From assembly GCF_900110425.1 (NCBI RefSeq), contig NZ_FODS01000003.1, positions 124,001-188,000 on the forward strand: 64,000 bases of DNA. Reading direction: 5' to 3'. Made by a program: the position numbers and the translations under genes. Below, piece by piece: positions 30,241-62,637 of the stretch. Numbering within the stretch: position 1 is the stretch's first letter; every line of letters starts with the position of its first letter. Origin of the DNA: Salinihabitans flavidus. Its GTDB lineage: Bacteria > Pseudomonadota > Alphaproteobacteria > Rhodobacterales > Rhodobacteraceae. Below the pieces are notes generated by a model. It made no database searches. It was not told where the DNA came from and saw nothing but the letters and a program-made list of their open reading frames with translations.

Positions 30241-31326
30241 ATGGGACTGTTTATCCTACGACGACTCGGGGTGATGCTGATCACGGCGTTGTGTCTGACG
30301 TTTGTGGTCTTCTTTCTCACGAATCTCTATCCCAATCTCGAGAAGCTGGCCAAGACGCAGGGCAATTTCCGCATGTCTGATGAAGCGGTGGAAAGCTGGC
30401 TTGAAAACCGCGGTCATCTTCAACCCATGCCGGTGAAATACGCCCAATGGCTCGGTGTGCTGCCCGGCTTTGTCAATGAGTTGCAGAACGGCACGGTTCT
30501 CGGAAAATGCGTAAAGCCGGGCATGGAACCCGATGAAATACCACGGTTTTGTGGTGTGTTGCAGGGCGACTGGGGCTTTTCGACCGTGTTCCGCGAAGAT
30601 GTCTCCGAAATCCTCGCCACGCGATTGGGGCTGACCGGGATTCTCATGTTCTGGGTGATGGTCCTGATGGTGCCTTCCGCGCTCATCATCGGGGTGCTTG
30701 CGGGGATGCGTGAGGGAAGCCGGGCAGACCGATCCCTCTCAACTGTGTCGATCCTGTCCACGGCCACACCGGAATACGTCTCGGGCGTGATCTTCATCGC
30801 GCTGCTGGCCTCGTCGCGGTATGGGCTCGGCCCGCTATTGAACGACTGGGGCCTGATCGAGGGCAACGCACCGTTCAAAGGCACGGCGACAAGCGCGATG
30901 GAAAATCCCACCTTCGAGAACTTCTTTCTGCCCGTGTTGACCATCGCGCTTTACGGGACGGGTTACATTGCGCGGATGACACGGGCGAGCATGGCCGAAG
31001 TGATGACAGCGCAGTATATCCGGACCGCGCGGCTCAAGGGGGCCACATTCCGCAACATTGTCTTGCGACACGCCTTGCGCAACGCCCTCATCGCGCCCTT
31101 TACCGTAATCATGCTGCAGTTTCCCTGGCTGCTGAACGGTGTGGTGATTGTCGAGACGCTCTTCAACTACAAGGGCTTCGGCTGGACGCTGGTGCAGGCT
31201 GCCGGCAACAATGACATCGAGATGCTTCTGGGGGTTTCGGTGGTCTCGGTCTTCGTGGTGCTGGCGACACAGCTGATCTCCGATATCGGCTATGTCTACC
31301 TGAATCCGCGTATCCGAATTACCTGA
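30241..31326 (+). CDS. peptide/nickel-type ABC transporter permease (DppB-like)
   Basis: A 361-residue inner-membrane permease of the OppB/DppB family. A first span at residues 8-28 is followed by a periplasmic loop of about 120 residues, longer than usual, then five further spans. The EAA loop is visible as Y-I-R-T-A-R-L-K-G-A near residue 260, contacting the ATPase. AGAGGA lies 4 bases before the ATG. It is first in an operon with a second permease and a fused ATPase. Confidence 0.92.
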   Translation: MGLFILRRLGVMLITALCLTFVVFFLTNLYPNLEKLAKTQGNFRMSDEAVESWLENRGHLQPMPVKYAQWLGVLPGFVNELQNGTVLGKCVKPGMEPDEIPRFCGVLQGDWGFSTVFREDVSEILATRLGLTGILMFWVMVLMVPSALIIGVLAGMREGSRADRSLSTVSILSTATPEYVSGVIFIALLASSRYGLGPLLNDWGLIEGNAPFKGTATSAMENPTFENFFLPVLTIALYGTGYIARMTRASMAEVMTAQYIRTARLKGATFRNIVLRHALRNALIAPFTVIMLQFPWLLNGVVIVETLFNYKGFGWTLVQAAGNNDIEMLLGVSVVSVFVVLATQLISDIGYVYLNPRIRIT

Positions 31327-52290: not shown

Positions 52291-53064
52291 TCAGAGCGCG
52301 GTCCAGCCGCCATCAATGCTGATCGTCGTTCCGGTGATCTGCGCCGCGGCATCAGAGCACAGGAACGTCGCCGTGCCGCCAATCTGCTCCACCGTGGCGA
52401 ATTCCCTCGAGGGTTGCCGCGTCAGCATCACGTTCTTGATGACCTCTTCGCGGGTCATATCGTATTCCTTCATGGTGTCGGGAATCTGCGCCTCGACCAG
52501 CGGGGTCAGAACGTAGCCCGGGCAGATCGCGTTGGCGGTGATCGCCTCCTCGGCGGTTTCAAGGGCCACCGTCTTCGTCATGCCCACAATGCCATGCTTT
52601 GCCGCGACATAGGCCGATTTGTAGGGAGAGGCCGTCAGCCCGTGCGCCGAGGCGATGTTGATCACCCGACCCCATCCGCGTGCCCGCATCCCCGGCAAGG
52701 CGGCCGCCGTGGTGTGAAAGGCGGAGCTCATGTTAATCGCGATGATGGCGTCCCATTTGTCCACCGGGAATTCCTCGATCGGCGCGACATGCTGAATCCC
52801 AGCGTTGTTGATGAGGATATCGCAGATGCCCGCCTTGGCAATGAGCTTGCGGCACTGTTCGCCTTTCGACATGTCGGCCTGAATGTAGCGCGCCGACACC
52901 CCGAATTCCTTGGCGATGCCATCGGCCAGCGCGTGGTCCTCCTCGCTGTCCGTGAAGGAGTTGAGCGCGACATCGGCCCCTGCCCGCGCCAGTTCCCGCG
53001 CGATTCCCAGACCGATTCCCGAATTGGACCCGGTGATGATGGCCGTTTTTCCCGAAAGCGTCAT
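52291..53064 (-). CDS. bdhA: 3-hydroxybutyrate dehydrogenase
   Basis: A 257-residue short-chain dehydrogenase. The NAD motif is T-G-S-N-S-G-I-G-L-G-I (about residues 11-21), N-N-A-G-I-Q-H-V is near 88, and the catalytic S-A...Y-x-x-x-K appears as Y-V-A-A-K-H near 153. The N-N-A-G-I-Q-H-V and A-H-G-L-T-A-S-P-Y-K-S-A-Y blocks are those of D-3-hydroxybutyrate dehydrogenases, which turn over ketone bodies and PHB. The start at 53064 removes a non-family extension. Confidence 0.92.
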   Translation of the reverse strand: MTLSGKTAIITGSNSGIGLGIARELARAGADVALNSFTDSEEDHALADGIAKEFGVSARYIQADMSKGEQCRKLIAKAGICDILINNAGIQHVAPIEEFPVDKWDAIIAINMSSAFHTTAAALPGMRARGWGRVINIASAHGLTASPYKSAYVAAKHGIVGMTKTVALETAEEAITANAICPGYVLTPLVEAQIPDTMKEYDMTREEVIKNVMLTRQPSREFATVEQIGGTATFLCSDAAAQITGTTISIDGGWTAL

Positions 53065-53156
53065 TGAGTTGCCCCTTGGTTTGAGTTGCCCGCACCATAG
53101 CATGCTGCATCAGCAAAATAAGGGGGAACGGGGGAAAAGGCAGCCATGAGGCGCAC

Positions 53157-53185
53157 AAAAAAAACGCCCGCACAAGGCGGGCGTT
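53157..53185 (-). terminator. strong Rho-independent terminator, minus strand
   Basis: Nine base pairs, AACGCCCGC with GCGGGCGTT, around a five-base loop, followed by eight Ts on the minus strand (two in the stem). It lies 93 bases before bdhA, so it ends an unannotated leftward transcript. Confidence 0.9.
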
Positions 53186-53233
53186 AAGTTATTGAGGCAG
53201 GTTTCATACAGGCAAGAAACCTATCGAGCAGTG
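53157..53233 (-). ncRNA. candidate intergenic small RNA
   Basis: A predicted leftward transcript of about 77 bases. It has a 5' stem-loop, AGGTTTC/GAAACCT (53199-53205 with 53216-53222), then a 13-base single-stranded A/U-rich linker and the strong terminator 53157-53185. A promoter with TTGGAC and TATACA precedes it. This is the canonical Hfq-type sRNA layout. No ORF of merit fits: the overlapping 74-codon frame has no ribosome site and stops before the stem-loop. It is divergent from a peptide-binding protein gene. Confidence 0.6.
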
Positions 53234-53238
53234 ACTCC

Positions 53239-53268
53239 TGTATAAGCAATCCAGCGTCCGGAGTCCAA
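53239..53268 (-). promoter_or_regulatory. sigma-70 promoter for the candidate small RNA
   Basis: On the minus strand TTGGAC (53263-53268), an 18-base spacer and TATACA (53239-53244). Predicted start is near 53233. Confidence 0.6.
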
Positions 53269-53277
53269 GGTAAAAGT

Positions 53278-53306
53278 TTGAAAACTCACGATTCCGGGGG
53301 TAGCCT
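53278..53306 (+). promoter_or_regulatory. promoter for the binding-protein gene
   Basis: TTGAAA (53278-53283), a 17-base spacer and TAGCCT (53301-53306). The predicted transcript starts near 53313, which favours the ATG at 53348 over that at 53315 as the start codon. Confidence 0.5.
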
Positions 53307-53347
53307 GACCGCCAATGAACAATGACAAGAGCAGGATTGTTGCCAGA

Positions 53348-55171
53348 ATGCGCCCGTTGAATTTTCCCCGATGGTGCCGGATTGGCGCCATCATCACACT
53401 AGTTTTGCTGCCTGTGAAAGGGCTCGCGGATCCTTCACATGGCATAGCTATGTATGGGGACCCCGCCCTGCCACCGGATTTTGTGTCTCTGCCCTATGCC
53501 AACCCGCAGGCCCCCAAGGGGGGGCGGGTCGTCACGGGCAACACGGGGGGGTACGATTCGCTCAACCCATTCATCCTGAAAGGCACCGCCCCGTGGCAGT
53601 TGCGATTTCTTGCCGCCGAATCGCTCATGGGACGAAACTGGGATGAACCGTTCACGCTCTACGGACTTCTGGCCGAATCGGTCGAGACCGGACCAGAGCG
53701 CGAATGGGTGGAATTCACCCTTCGCCCCGAGGCGCGATTCTCCGATGGCAGCCCGGTGACGGTGGAGGATGTGATCTGGTCCTACGACGTTCTGGGCACC
53801 GAGGGTCACCCACGCTATCATGGGTTCTGGTCCAGGGTGGAGCGGATCGAACAGACGGGCGAACGCAAGGTCAGGTTGACCTTCGAGACACCGGACCGCG
53901 AGCTTGCCATGCTGGCCGGTATGCGCCCCATTCTCAAGAAGACGCAATGGGCGGGCAAGGATTTCAGCCAGTCCACGTTGGAGGATGTGCCGATCACCAC
54001 CGCCCCCTATGTGATCGCGGATTTCGAACCGGGGCGCCATGTCACCCTGCACCGCGATCCCGACTACTGGGGCCGCGATCTGCCATTTCGCCGAGGCACG
54101 CATAACCTTGACGAAATCCGCATCGAATTCTTCGGCGATGGCGATGTTCTATTCGAGGCCTTCAAGGCTGGTGATCTGTCCTACATCCGCGAGTTCAACG
54201 CCGAAGCTTGGGCCAATCGGTATGATTTCCGTCGTGTCCGCGAAGGCGACATCGTCAAATCCGAAATCCCGCATCAGAAACCGTCGGGAATGACCGGGTT
54301 GGTGATGAATACCCGGCGCGCGCCCTTTGACGATATTCGGGTGCGTGATGCCCTTCTACACGCGTTTAATTTCGAATTCGTAAACGACACGCTCACGGGA
54401 GGACGTCAGCCGCGGATCACCTCGTATTTCTCTAATTCCATTCTGGCCATGCGCCCCGGTCCGGCCGAGGGACGGGTGGCGGAGTTGCTGACGCCTTATG
54501 CCGAGGCATTGCCGCCCGGAACGCTGGAGGGGTATACACTGCCGCAAAGCGATGGCACCTCCCGCAACCGTGGCAATCTGCGCAAGGCGCTGCGCCTTCT
54601 GGCAGACGCGGGCTGGACCGTGCAGGAGGGGCGGCTGGCCAATGAGGCCGGAACGCCGATGCGGTTCGAGATTCTCCTGCGTCAGGCCGATCAGCAGACG
54701 CAGGCCATCGCGGACATTTACAGCCAAGCGCTGGAACGGCTGGGCATCGACGTGCGGCAAACCACGGTGGACAACGCGCAATACACCCGGCGGATCAACG
54801 CGTTCGATTTCGACATGACGGACTTCCGCCGCTCCCTGTCGCTCAGCCCCGGCAATGAGCAGCGGCTCTACTGGGGTTCGGAGGCCGCCACGCAGGAGGG
54901 CAGCCGCAACCTGATGGGGGTGCGCTCAAAGGCTGTGGACGAGGTGATTGACGCGCTTCTGGCCTCGGAAAGCCGCGAGGATTTCCTCTCGGCGGCCCGT
55001 GCGCTTGACCGGGTGCTCACGGCGGGGCGTTATGTGATCCCGATCTGGACCTATGCCGTGGGGCGGATTGCGCATGTCAAGGAGCTGAAGTATCCCGATA
55101 CCGTGCCGATCTATGGCGACGGGGCGGAATGGATGCCCGCGACATGGTGGTATGAGGAGACGGAAGAATGA
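53348..55171 (+). CDS. family 5 extracellular solute-binding protein (YejA/OppA-like)
   Basis: A periplasmic peptide-type binding protein of about 607 residues. The signal peptide has a basic start and a hydrophobic core I-G-A-I-I-T-L-V-L-L-P (about residues 12-22), cleaved after G-L-A. SBP_bac_5 features include the N-terminal G-G-Y-D-S-L-N-P-F region and F-S-D-G-S-P-V-T-V-E-D-V near residue 140. The size is that of YejA. Starts at 53348 or 53315 are possible. No permease or ATPase follows; the nearest such operon is at 30241-34740. Its stop overlaps the next small lipoprotein gene (ATGA). Confidence 0.92.
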   Translation: MRPLNFPRWCRIGAIITLVLLPVKGLADPSHGIAMYGDPALPPDFVSLPYANPQAPKGGRVVTGNTGGYDSLNPFILKGTAPWQLRFLAAESLMGRNWDEPFTLYGLLAESVETGPEREWVEFTLRPEARFSDGSPVTVEDVIWSYDVLGTEGHPRYHGFWSRVERIEQTGERKVRLTFETPDRELAMLAGMRPILKKTQWAGKDFSQSTLEDVPITTAPYVIADFEPGRHVTLHRDPDYWGRDLPFRRGTHNLDEIRIEFFGDGDVLFEAFKAGDLSYIREFNAEAWANRYDFRRVREGDIVKSEIPHQKPSGMTGLVMNTRRAPFDDIRVRDALLHAFNFEFVNDTLTGGRQPRITSYFSNSILAMRPGPAEGRVAELLTPYAEALPPGTLEGYTLPQSDGTSRNRGNLRKALRLLADAGWTVQEGRLANEAGTPMRFEILLRQADQQTQAIADIYSQALERLGIDVRQTTVDNAQYTRRINAFDFDMTDFRRSLSLSPGNEQRLYWGSEAATQEGSRNLMGVRSKAVDEVIDALLASESREDFLSAARALDRVLTAGRYVIPIWTYAVGRIAHVKELKYPDTVPIYGDGAEWMPATWWYEETEE

Positions 55172-59254: not shown

Positions 59255-62194
59255 TCAGCTTCCCAGCGACCACCAGCCGCGACGTTTGCTGGCGGGCTTC
59301 TTCTTCTTTTCAGCGGCCGGTTTTTCCAGCACCTCGCCCTTTGAGTCAGCTGTTGTGTCGCTGTCGTTCGTGGCACTTTCCGGCTCTGCCTCTGCCTCGG
59401 CCGGTTCGTCCGGCGCGGTTGGGGCCTTCTGCTCCGGTTGTTCCGGTTCGGCCGGGGACGGCGCGGAGTCCGCCGGGGTCTGTTCCGGCTGTTCCACCGT
59501 CCGGGCCGCTTCGGCAGGTGCCGTTTCCGCCTCATGCGCGGCGGTGGCCGGCGTCGTGTCGGGGGCGGGCTCCGGCTTTGCCGGTGCGGCCGTGTCTGCC
59601 CCGGTCGCCTCGGGCGTGGGCGCTGCGACCTCCTGCGGTGCGGTGTCGGCCTTTGCGGGCTTCCTGCGGGTGCGGGTGCGGCGCTTTTTCGGCGCGGGCT
59701 CCGCGGCCTCGCCGGCCTCCTCGGGCGCCGTGTCGGCATCGCTGTCAACCGCGACCGCCTTTTGTGCCGAAGGCTCCGGCGTTGGGGCGTCGCTGCCGCT
59801 TTGATCCGGGGTATCGGGCGATGCTGCCTCGCCGCTCTGAGCGGTGCTGTCGCTGCTGTTGTCAGTCCCGTTGCCGTCGGCCTGATCCCCGTTGCCGGTT
59901 TTCTTCTTGCTGCGGCGACGGCGGCGACGCTTTTTCCTGGGCTTGTCGTCGCTCTCGGCCTGCGGCTGCTCCGGCTCCGGCTCTGGCCGGGGTTCGGTCA
60001 CGACATCCGCCTCTTCGACGATGTTGTCGTCGTCGTCGATCTGTCCCATCAGGGCGGCATCGGCGGACACCACCGGCACGACCTCGGGCACGGTGCGGGT
60101 GGCGGTCTTGAATTTCTCAAGGCTGAAGTCGGGGGAGATCAGCATGGGATCCCCCTCGATGCGCACCGACAGGCCATAGCGCGCCTCGATCATCGCCACA
60201 TGTTCGCGCTTGTGGTTCATGAGGTAGTTGGCAATCCCGATAGGTGCCTTGACCAGCACTTCGCGCGAGCGGCGGCGGGTGCCCTCTTCCTCGATCTCGC
60301 GCAGGATCGAAAGCGCAAGATTGTCGTCGGAACGGATCAACCCGGTGCCGTGACAATGCGGACAGGGCTGTGTCGTGGCCTCGATCATGCCGGGGCGCAA
60401 ACGCTGGCGCGACATCTCCAGCAAGCCGAAGCCCGAGATGCGGCCCATCTGGATGCGGGCGCGATCCGTTTTCAGCTTGTCCTTGAGCATCTTCTCCACG
60501 GCGGCGTTGTTCTTGCGTTCATCCATGTCGATGAAGTCGATCACGATGAGGCCCGCAAGGTCACGCAGGCGCAGTTGGCGGGCCACCTCTTCGGCGGCCT
60601 CCAGATTGGTCTTGGTCGCCGTCTCCTCGATCGAGCCTTCCTTGGTGGCGCGACCGGAGTTCACGTCGATGGCCACGAGCGCCTCTGTCACGCCGATGAC
60701 GATATAGCCACCTGACCTGAGCTGCACCGTGGGGTTGAACATCGACGACAGGTAGCTTTCGACCTGAAAACGCGCGAAGAGCGGGAGCGAGCCCTCGTAT
60801 TTCTTCACGTTCTTGGCATGGGACGGCATGATCATCTTCATGAAGTCCTTGGCGATGCGGTAGCCGCGGTCGCCCTCCACCAGAACCTCGTCGATGTCGC
60901 GGCTGTAGAGGTCGCGGATCGAGCGTTTGATCAGGTCGCCCTCTTCGTAGATCTTGGCCGGCGCGATGGATTGCAGCGTCAGCTCGCGGATCTGTTCCCA
61001 GAGCCGTTGTAGGTATTCATAGTCGCGCTTGATCTCGGCCTTGGTGCGGTTGGCCCCGGCGGTGCGCACGATGAGCCCCGCGCCCTTGGGCACGTCGATC
61101 TCCGAGGCGATGGCCTTGAGTTTCTTGCGGTCCACGGCATTGGTGATCTTGCGGCTGATGCCGCCGCCACGGGCGGTGTTGGGCATGAGCACGCAGTAGC
61201 GGCCCGCGAGCGAAAGGTAGGTGGTCAGCGCCGCGCCCTTGTTGCCGCGTTCCTCTTTGACCACCTGCACCAGCATGATCTGGCGGACCTTGATCACCTC
61301 CTGGATCTTGTAGCGGCGCGGGCGGGCCTTGCGCGGCGGGCGGATGTCGTCGGTATCGTCATCATCGGCCACCGATTCAATGGTGTCATCCTTGGACGCG
61401 GCGTCGGAACGGCGCCGGCTGCCACGGCGATTGCCATTGTCGTCATCGCCGTCCGTGCCGTTATCCTCGGTTTCTTCGCCGGTGCCGGGATCGCGGGTGG
61501 CGAGCGCATCGCCGTGATCGGCGTTTGCGGCCATCGTCTTGCCACCGGAGCTGCCGGATGTATCGGAATCGTCGCCATCGTCGTCCGCGGAAGGCTCTTG
61601 CCCGGATGTGTCGTCCGGGGCATCGGGATTCGCGGATTGGGGCTTGGACTTGTCCTCGACCAGCGCCGAGGTTTCGGCGTCCGTGTCTTGCGAGGTGTCG
61701 AGGTCGATCGTTTCCATGCCGGAAATCTGACCGCTTTGCGGGGCTGAGTCTTCCGGTGCGTCATTCGACTCCGCTTCCGGTGCCGCCCCTTTCGGTGCGT
61801 CATCGGTTTCGGGCTTGGCCTGCTTGGGCTTTCGCGCACGGCTGCGGCGGGCGCGGGCCGGTTTGGGGTTGTCCTCTTCCTCGTCGCGCTCTTTCTGGGC
61901 CTCGGCCAGAGCGCGCTCTTCCTCCATCAGCGCCTCGCGGTCGGCGACGGGGATCTGATAGTAGTCGGGATGAATCTCGGAAAACGCGAGAAACCCGTGC
62001 CGGTTGCCGCCGTAATCGACGAAGGCCGCCTGAAGCGACGGTTCGACCCGCGTTACCTTTGCGAGATAGATATTGCCAGCAAGCTGGCGCTTGTTTTCGG
62101 ATTCAAAATCAAATTCCTCGACTTTGTTTCCATCCACCACAACAACGCGGGTTTCTTCCGCGTGCGTGGCGTCTATGAGCATTTTCTTTGCCAT
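59255..62194 (-). CDS. rne: ribonuclease E
   Basis: A 979-residue RNase E/G, the mRNA-decay and rRNA-processing endonuclease. The S1 domain begins near residue 38 but is interrupted by an acidic, Ser/Asp/Glu-rich disordered insert (about residues 80-290), as in alphaproteobacteria. The catalytic domain holds A-I-D-V-N-S-G-R and I-V-I-D-F-I-D-M. The zinc link C-P-H-C-H-G-T-G is near residue 613. The C-terminal 270 residues are disordered, rich in Pro, Ala, Glu and Arg, and suit RNA and partner binding. The start M-A-K-K-M-L-I-D at 62194 is preferred to 62209. Confidence 0.97.
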   Translation of the reverse strand: MAKKMLIDATHAEETRVVVVDGNKVEEFDFESENKRQLAGNIYLAKVTRVEPSLQAAFVDYGGNRHGFLAFSEIHPDYYQIPVADREALMEEERALAEAQKERDEEEDNPKPARARRSRARKPKQAKPETDDAPKGAAPEAESNDAPEDSAPQSGQISGMETIDLDTSQDTDAETSALVEDKSKPQSANPDAPDDTSGQEPSADDDGDDSDTSGSSGGKTMAANADHGDALATRDPGTGEETEDNGTDGDDDNGNRRGSRRRSDAASKDDTIESVADDDDTDDIRPPRKARPRRYKIQEVIKVRQIMLVQVVKEERGNKGAALTTYLSLAGRYCVLMPNTARGGGISRKITNAVDRKKLKAIASEIDVPKGAGLIVRTAGANRTKAEIKRDYEYLQRLWEQIRELTLQSIAPAKIYEEGDLIKRSIRDLYSRDIDEVLVEGDRGYRIAKDFMKMIMPSHAKNVKKYEGSLPLFARFQVESYLSSMFNPTVQLRSGGYIVIGVTEALVAIDVNSGRATKEGSIEETATKTNLEAAEEVARQLRLRDLAGLIVIDFIDMDERKNNAAVEKMLKDKLKTDRARIQMGRISGFGLLEMSRQRLRPGMIEATTQPCPHCHGTGLIRSDDNLALSILREIEEEGTRRRSREVLVKAPIGIANYLMNHKREHVAMIEARYGLSVRIEGDPMLISPDFSLEKFKTATRTVPEVVPVVSADAALMGQIDDDDNIVEEADVVTEPRPEPEPEQPQAESDDKPRKKRRRRRRSKKKTGNGDQADGNGTDNSSDSTAQSGEAASPDTPDQSGSDAPTPEPSAQKAVAVDSDADTAPEEAGEAAEPAPKKRRTRTRRKPAKADTAPQEVAAPTPEATGADTAAPAKPEPAPDTTPATAAHEAETAPAEAARTVEQPEQTPADSAPSPAEPEQPEQKAPTAPDEPAEAEAEPESATNDSDTTADSKGEVLEKPAAEKKKKPASKRRGWWSLGS

Positions 62195-62637
62195 TTTGTC
62201 CGTTTGCACCCGTACGACACCCGCGCCCGGGGGGCGCGAGTGTCGCGTCGGGGTGTCTTGTCAGGGCGAATGATGGCGCGCGGCAGACAGGGCCGCTTGC
62301 GGCCTCTGCTCTGACACTCATGTTTTGCGCGCGCTTCATCGCGGTTCTTCTCCGACGCTCGGCCCCTTGCGGGAGCACCGCGCCTGTTGCATGCCCGCCG
62401 CTTGCGCGATCCGGGCGACTTTCCGGCCTCATTTTCAAGTAAGGCCTAATCGGTCCGACCGGGCGACCGCGGGGTTTAAGGCCCCGTGCGGTCAGGGTCG
62501 GCGAAACTCTTGCGGACCGGTTCAAATCCACCGGACTCCGTCTTTCTCAACATAAGGCCAGCGCGCGGGCAATTACAATGGGCAAAACCCAAGAAATGGC
62601 GCGGTGGAAATATGCAACCATCGCGCGAGCGGAACGT
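62195..62637 (-). other. long rne leader with structured segments
   Basis: 443 bases between rne and the upstream regulator gene. Long frames here lack ribosome sites. The region holds several stable hairpins, above all that at 62449-62521. A long structured leader fits the known autoregulation of rne through its 5' UTR in enterobacteria, but no recognised motif is seen. Confidence 0.5.
62449..62521 (-). ncRNA. multi-branched RNA structure in the rne leader
   Basis: CGGTCCG (62451-62457) pairs perfectly with CGGACCG (62513-62519), closing a loop with two inner hairpins. The first is GACCGC-GGGG with CCCC-gt-GCGGTC (62465-62493, loop TTTAAGG). The second is AGGGT with ACTCT (62494-62509). On either strand this is cloverleaf-like but lacks a tRNA acceptor and T-arm. 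Confidence 0.4.

Follow-up and report, generated by a model that had tools for sequence, protein, structure and literature searches.

A small RNA gene conserved across Rhodobacteraceae with conserved complementarity to the mraZ/dcw leader

What does the short interval between a 3-hydroxybutyrate dehydrogenase gene and a divergent peptide-binding protein gene encode in Salinihabitans flavidus (Rhodobacteraceae)? We analyzed a 64,000-nucleotide (nt) stretch of contig NZ_FODS01000003.1 (assembly GCF_900110425.1, positions 124,001 to 188,000, forward strand), here called the window; positions without another reference are window positions. A preliminary description, made from the sequence alone, had proposed a complete small RNA (sRNA) transcription unit in this interval and had linked it to peptide uptake in the manner of GcvB. 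Our analysis strongly supports a gene for a small RNA, with a promoter and a terminator of its own, at 53157-53233. Complementarity predicts that its conserved antisense partner is not the neighboring gene but, at another place in the genome, the mraZ/dcw leader, which heads the essential division cluster.

In order, the unit comprises a stem-loop with an 8-bp stem, a linker without pairing and a terminator of 9 bp that runs into eight T (Table 1). The promoter on the minus strand reads exactly as first described (TTGGAC-N18-TATACA, by eye), and so does the 9-bp terminator with its long T-run. The first stem-loop is also present, but with 8 bp in the stem instead of the 7 bp first given, and a loop of 10 nt. 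The predicted RNA folds at -25 kcal/mol, whereas dinucleotide shuffles reach -14.0 +/- 2.5 (z -4.4), and none of 200 shuffles equals it. No open reading frame (ORF) of note was found within it, in keeping with the earlier claim of a 77-base unit without an ORF: the internal ATG opens only 7 codons, and its stop is lost in two copies (L024 and L028, by eye in the alignment of copies).

Scored on the bare sigma-70 consensus, the promoter is weak (7/12), and it was not listed in the promoter scan. It is credible because it is conserved among copies, not through its consensus score. TTGGnn-N15-19-TATA is kept in 83 of 91 sRNA copies, a set that excludes five further loci holding the leader instead of the sRNA and in which two rows (G115 and G322) are probably one genome. 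The box CAAACTTTT lies directly upstream and is exact in most copies. The TTG-type -35 element is compatible with RpoH or sigma-70.

The gene is found family-wide and is usually single-copy. Searched with a 161-base query, 35 of 36 other family genomes gave a match at E < 1e-15, while 24 genomes taken from the class's other families gave none below E 1e-3. With a 114-base query, matches were found in 289 of 295 family genomes, and in 258 of 260 when only genomes with completeness of 90% or more and contamination of 5% or less were counted. All 12 named genomes carry it, including Cereibacter johrii, Rhodobacter capsulatus and Thalassobacter stenotrophicus. We also constructed a covariance model on 37 copies; it matched all 149 genomes of an order sample, all of them from this one family, with a best match per genome of at least 86 bits. 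Among 240 genomes sampled across the class, the three family members each scored above 100 bits; the 237 genomes from other families gave no convincing match (weak ones in 28, with E no higher than 0.05 and never above 32 bits). Twelve weak loci outside the family were inspected, and none had any of four core words. Conservation of gene and promoter among close relatives, which the preliminary description had named as a check, is borne out by these counts. The six unmatched family genomes are all drafts (70-530 contigs, 71-92% complete), in which absence of the gene is not established.

Within the sRNA, 79 of 91 copies share one 41-nt core (ACTGCTCGATAGGTTTCTTGCCTGTATGAAACCTGCCTCAA); eight more have it with a final T, and four differ. 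Stem-loop 1 shows no covariation because its pairs are nearly constant (of 9 predicted pairs, 7 are unchanged in all 37 sequences). In the terminator stem, changes on both sides compensate each other and retain pairing in 6 of 8 predicted pairs. A core nearly invariant across the family, in nearly every genome examined, points to unusually strong constraint, yet no Rfam family covers this sRNA. Sub-threshold Rfam matches (Hrs13, suhB, Leu/Trp leaders) were rejected, as they lie far below cut-off and rest mainly on the hairpin-plus-terminator architecture. We found no description of the sRNA in the literature, a search that did not cover the 2009 R. sphaeroides sRNA list and the Nucleic Acids Research 2021 paper on StsR, so it may already have an RSs number.

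The partner emerged from the sRNA itself. In its own genome, one secondary match is the reverse complement of the loop and 3' arm of stem-loop 1 and lies within the mraZ leader (a stronger secondary match is confined to the query's terminator region). The predicted duplex has -28.9 kcal/mol, net -16.4; these and the other pairing energies come from a home-made accessibility-plus-duplex script, not IntaRNA, and are values without a shuffle control. Of 100 family genomes, 97 contain the 16-nt word GCCTGTATGAAACCTG with at most one mismatch, in most cases at two places, one of them the sRNA, whereas its reversed control gave one match in all 100 genomes together.

We located mraZ (PF02381) in 75 of 80 chosen genomes and compared 68 leaders: 60 of the 64 regions from the mraZ table, those of the window's own genome and R. 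sphaeroides, and six from named genomes picked because the site had already matched there. The 16-nt site has no mismatch in 32 leaders, one in 17, two in 5, three in 4 and four in 1, so that 49 of 68 have at most one. Of 66 full leaders, 53 contain an exact copy of its 11-nt core (TTCATACAGGC). In the alignment, which is restricted to the 62 leaders where the site was found, it forms a conserved island within an otherwise poorly conserved 5' part. In R. sphaeroides, the leader gives rise to UpsM (RSs0682), a 206-nt RNA derived from the 5' untranslated region (UTR), whereas the sRNA is an independent gene. The 5' part of UpsM was called hardly conserved by its discoverers, and the long mraZ leader is restricted to this family (PMC5089854). 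An sRNA binding there would explain the island, and sRNA and leader share their confinement to the family. Among the six draft genomes lacking an sRNA match, three (G157, G190 and G260) retain the leader site, and no co-loss of the two was shown in these assemblies.

A second pairing, between the sRNA 5' end (CACUGCUC) and the UpsM terminator loop, was considered and rejected. Although it scores a strong -14.0 in the window and -8.4 in R. sphaeroides, just 26 of 58 leaders allow it, and the sRNA shows no change that would compensate. That terminator loop (CAGTGGCAGC, near 1626-1650 of L003) is itself conserved, occurring with at most two mismatches in 58 of 66 leaders over a stem that varies; no partner for it was found.

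In Rhodobacter sphaeroides (G075, which we take to be strain 2.4.1, as the published UpsM cleavage coordinate fits it), the sRNA gene lies at 1,443,994-1,444,071 of chromosome 1 (chr1) between the same two neighbors. Its predicted site is UpsM nt 55-70 (694,690-694,705). RNase E cuts UpsM at 694,720 (PMC6238624); this corresponds to nt 85 when counted by position and to about nt 76 when derived from the size of the 130-nt product. The site therefore ends 6-15 nt before the mapped cleavage site. With gene, target and mapped RNase E site in one organism that is innocuous and a laboratory species, the idea is directly testable in R. sphaeroides.

Taken as a whole, these observations are probably best explained by a trans-acting sRNA that pairs with the UpsM/dcw leader, is distinct from StsR and likely lowers readthrough into the division genes. 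The sRNA would be transcribed from the CTTGG/TATAA promoter, bind Hfq and pair with the leader at nt 55-70 (R. sphaeroides numbering). Pairing could then guide RNase E in turning over the leader, a few bases past the duplex on its downstream side, with less readthrough into the division genes as the likeliest effect. At the sequence level, what is present is the gene, its conservation and the conserved 16-nt complementarity of loop and 3' stem arm with the leader; the case for pairing rests on this conservation and not on energy. The features expected of a trans-acting Hfq-type sRNA were found: a conserved promoter of its own, a U-tailed Rho-independent terminator, no conserved ORF, and a conserved seed whose target site, at a separate locus, is conserved as well. 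Hfq-dependent sRNAs that guide RNase E, such as MicC and RyhB, have their own promoter, a seed, a U-tailed terminator and a cleavage site beside the duplex. Our sRNA has the same predicted layout and is a candidate member of this group; it differs from MicC and RyhB in that its seed is the loop plus one arm of a stem-loop.

Several observations weigh against this explanation. Blocking nt 54-71 in folded UpsM is not enough on its own to expose the cleavage region (unpaired 0.15 before and after). Nine of the 68 leaders lack an ungapped site: two are on truncated contigs, five miss 1-2 bases within the site, and two (G029 and G008) have no site. In the Cereibacter group, the site carries an A-C mismatch. 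A net energy near -16 is not unusual by itself, as an unrelated terminator stretch reached -15.7. No compensatory change between seed and site was found in the three genomes where it was sought: the G029 leader has no clear site, those of G017 and G083 were truncated or not found, and in G083, which has a natural seed variant, the two other near-matches that were read show no adjacent mraZ. The main weakness concerns the distinction from StsR, which is drawn from locus number, rpoE pairing and UpsM folding and not from StsR's own sequence; StsR's 72-nt length fits our sRNA at least as well.

The principal alternative is that UpsM acts as a sponge, an abundant RNA that titrates the sRNA away from real mRNA targets elsewhere. 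An invariant loop seed is what one expects of a multi-target RNA. Nevertheless, no other extended complementarity recurred across genomes, and second matches were mostly the leader, although short multi-target seeds would be invisible to that search. We regard the sponge as possible but rather unlikely.

A second alternative, that the sRNA is StsR itself, was our first working view. StsR is published as RpoHI/RpoHII-dependent, 72 nt long and a binder of both UpsM and the 5' UTR of dcw (PMC8307010, PMC8625941). Its earlier name was RSs0827; PMC6509803 contains the array name IGR_0827. As the published binder of the UpsM/dcw leader that triggers RNase E cleavage, StsR resembles our sRNA: both are short, family-conserved orphan RNAs, and our seed is conserved against the same leader, with which pairing is predicted. 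The length of our sRNA is 72-77 nt depending on the choice of 3' end, and 72-73 nt if it ends after four U. We abandoned the identity on locus number, rpoE pairing and UpsM folding, and now consider it improbable. RSs0827 appears to be IGR_0827, and interpolation from RSs0682 (694.6 kb) to RSs1624 (1,724.5 kb), by a numbering-by-position rule that we infer, puts number 827 near 853 kb. The sRNA, at 1,444 kb, would be about number 1367.

We scanned terminator-ended stretches in R. sphaeroides, 18 in chr1 790-910 kb and chr2 863-943 kb and six more in 1,434-1,454 kb. Among these, an element at 858,132 was best for UpsM (-15.9). As published, StsR pairs with rpoE from 10 nt past the GTG, exactly where the 858-kb element pairs (hybrid -16.9), whereas the nearest duplex of our sRNA has 8 bp, net -4.9, and begins 14 nt after the GTG (the rpoE sequence used is that of the close relative C. 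johrii). In the folding model, the cleavage region opens (unpaired 0.15 to 0.41) when UpsM nt 9-22, where the 858-kb element is predicted to bind, are blocked; blocking the site of our sRNA has no such effect. As the structural change of UpsM published for StsR requires a freed cleavage region, this points to the 858-kb element and not to our sRNA. By our own identification, StsR thus has another locus, another core and another UpsM site (nt 9-22 against nt 55-70), and our sRNA is most likely a second, distinct sRNA on the dcw leader.

The putative StsR gene lies at about 858,053-858,138 of R. sphaeroides chr1 (L239:8053-8138), downstream of an rRNA-methyltransferase-like gene. Five Cereibacter-group copies and the window's genome have the same core (UUCACUGUCCCUCGUUCCG); in the window's genome the putative gene is at G000:C32:72436-72487 (L398), a locus without an Rfam match. 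The 858-kb element is conserved too: searches with it matched all 40 genomes at E up to 1, many weakly; the match in the window's own genome has E 7e-5.

Tentatively, the dcw leader may be a hub for two family-wide sRNAs, with StsR opening the UpsM 5' domain and the second RNA docking inside, next to the RNase E site. Two signals could then jointly set division-gene output, or UpsM could sponge both RNAs; we put this forward as a proposal that is somewhat more apt to fail than to hold.

Table 1 Predicted features of the sRNA locus and its flanking genes in the window.
Feature	Position	Strand	Remarks
sRNA gene, predicted transcript about 72-77 nt	53157..53233	-	fold z -4.4; 289/295 family genomes; covariance model 107 bits; start and end predicted
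CAAACTTTT box, directly upstream of -35	53272..53280	-	exact in 74/91 copies; at most 1 mismatch in 79/91
-35 element TTGGAC (family form CTTGG)	53263..53268	-	CTTGG in 79/91 copies
-10 element TATACA (family form TATAA)	53239..53244	-	18-base spacer to -35
Stem-loop 1, 8-bp stem and 10-nt loop UUGCCUGUAU	53198..53223	-	fold and covariance alignment
16-nt seed, loop and 3' arm of stem-loop 1	53198..53213	-	complementary to mraZ/UpsM leader
Rho-independent terminator stem-loop, 9 bp, 5-nt loop, then 8 T down to 53157	53163..53185	-	
3-hydroxybutyrate dehydrogenase gene	52291..53103	-	downstream of sRNA, same strand; TIGR01963 366.6 bits, cut-off 307
Extracellular solute-binding protein gene, family 5 (peptide/nickel type)	53315..55171	+	divergent from sRNA; PF00496 222 bits

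The neighborhood is also conserved. The binding-protein gene adjoins the sRNA in 88 of 91 loci and the dehydrogenase gene in 73 (both in 71, binding protein only in 17, dehydrogenase only in 2, neither in 1; flanks of 0.7-1.5 kb, with genome G031 counted twice). Although this adjacency, and the overlap with the sRNA that a peptide-gene transcript starting before 53233 would have, could suggest that the sRNA controls the divergent gene, GcvB-like or through antisense overlap, we consider this very improbable, as the two genes diverge, pairing with the gene's start region outside shared DNA reaches 6-7 bp at best (net -9.9 for the window and -6.4 for R. sphaeroides), and the Rfam GcvB model RF00022 scores 16.1 bits, far under its gathering score of 42. 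The peptide-uptake role first suggested for the sRNA is not supported by these comparisons.

The alphaproteobacterial sRNA MmgR/suhB (RF00519) resembles ours in its length of 77 nt. MmgR/suhB is tied to polyhydroxybutyrate storage, and our gene adjoins a 3-hydroxybutyrate dehydrogenase gene. The stem-loop 1 sequences differ, and the RF00519 model gives 24.2 bits against a gathering score of 41. About 6 kb from the sRNA gene, the window contains an RNase E/G family gene (59255-62209, minus strand; PF10150, 328 bits), the enzyme type proposed to act on the partner RNA. Elsewhere in the window, positions 30903-31081 (minus strand) match Rfam RF02647, the Ruegeria cis52 sRNA, over its full length with 90.2 bits (cut-off 56).
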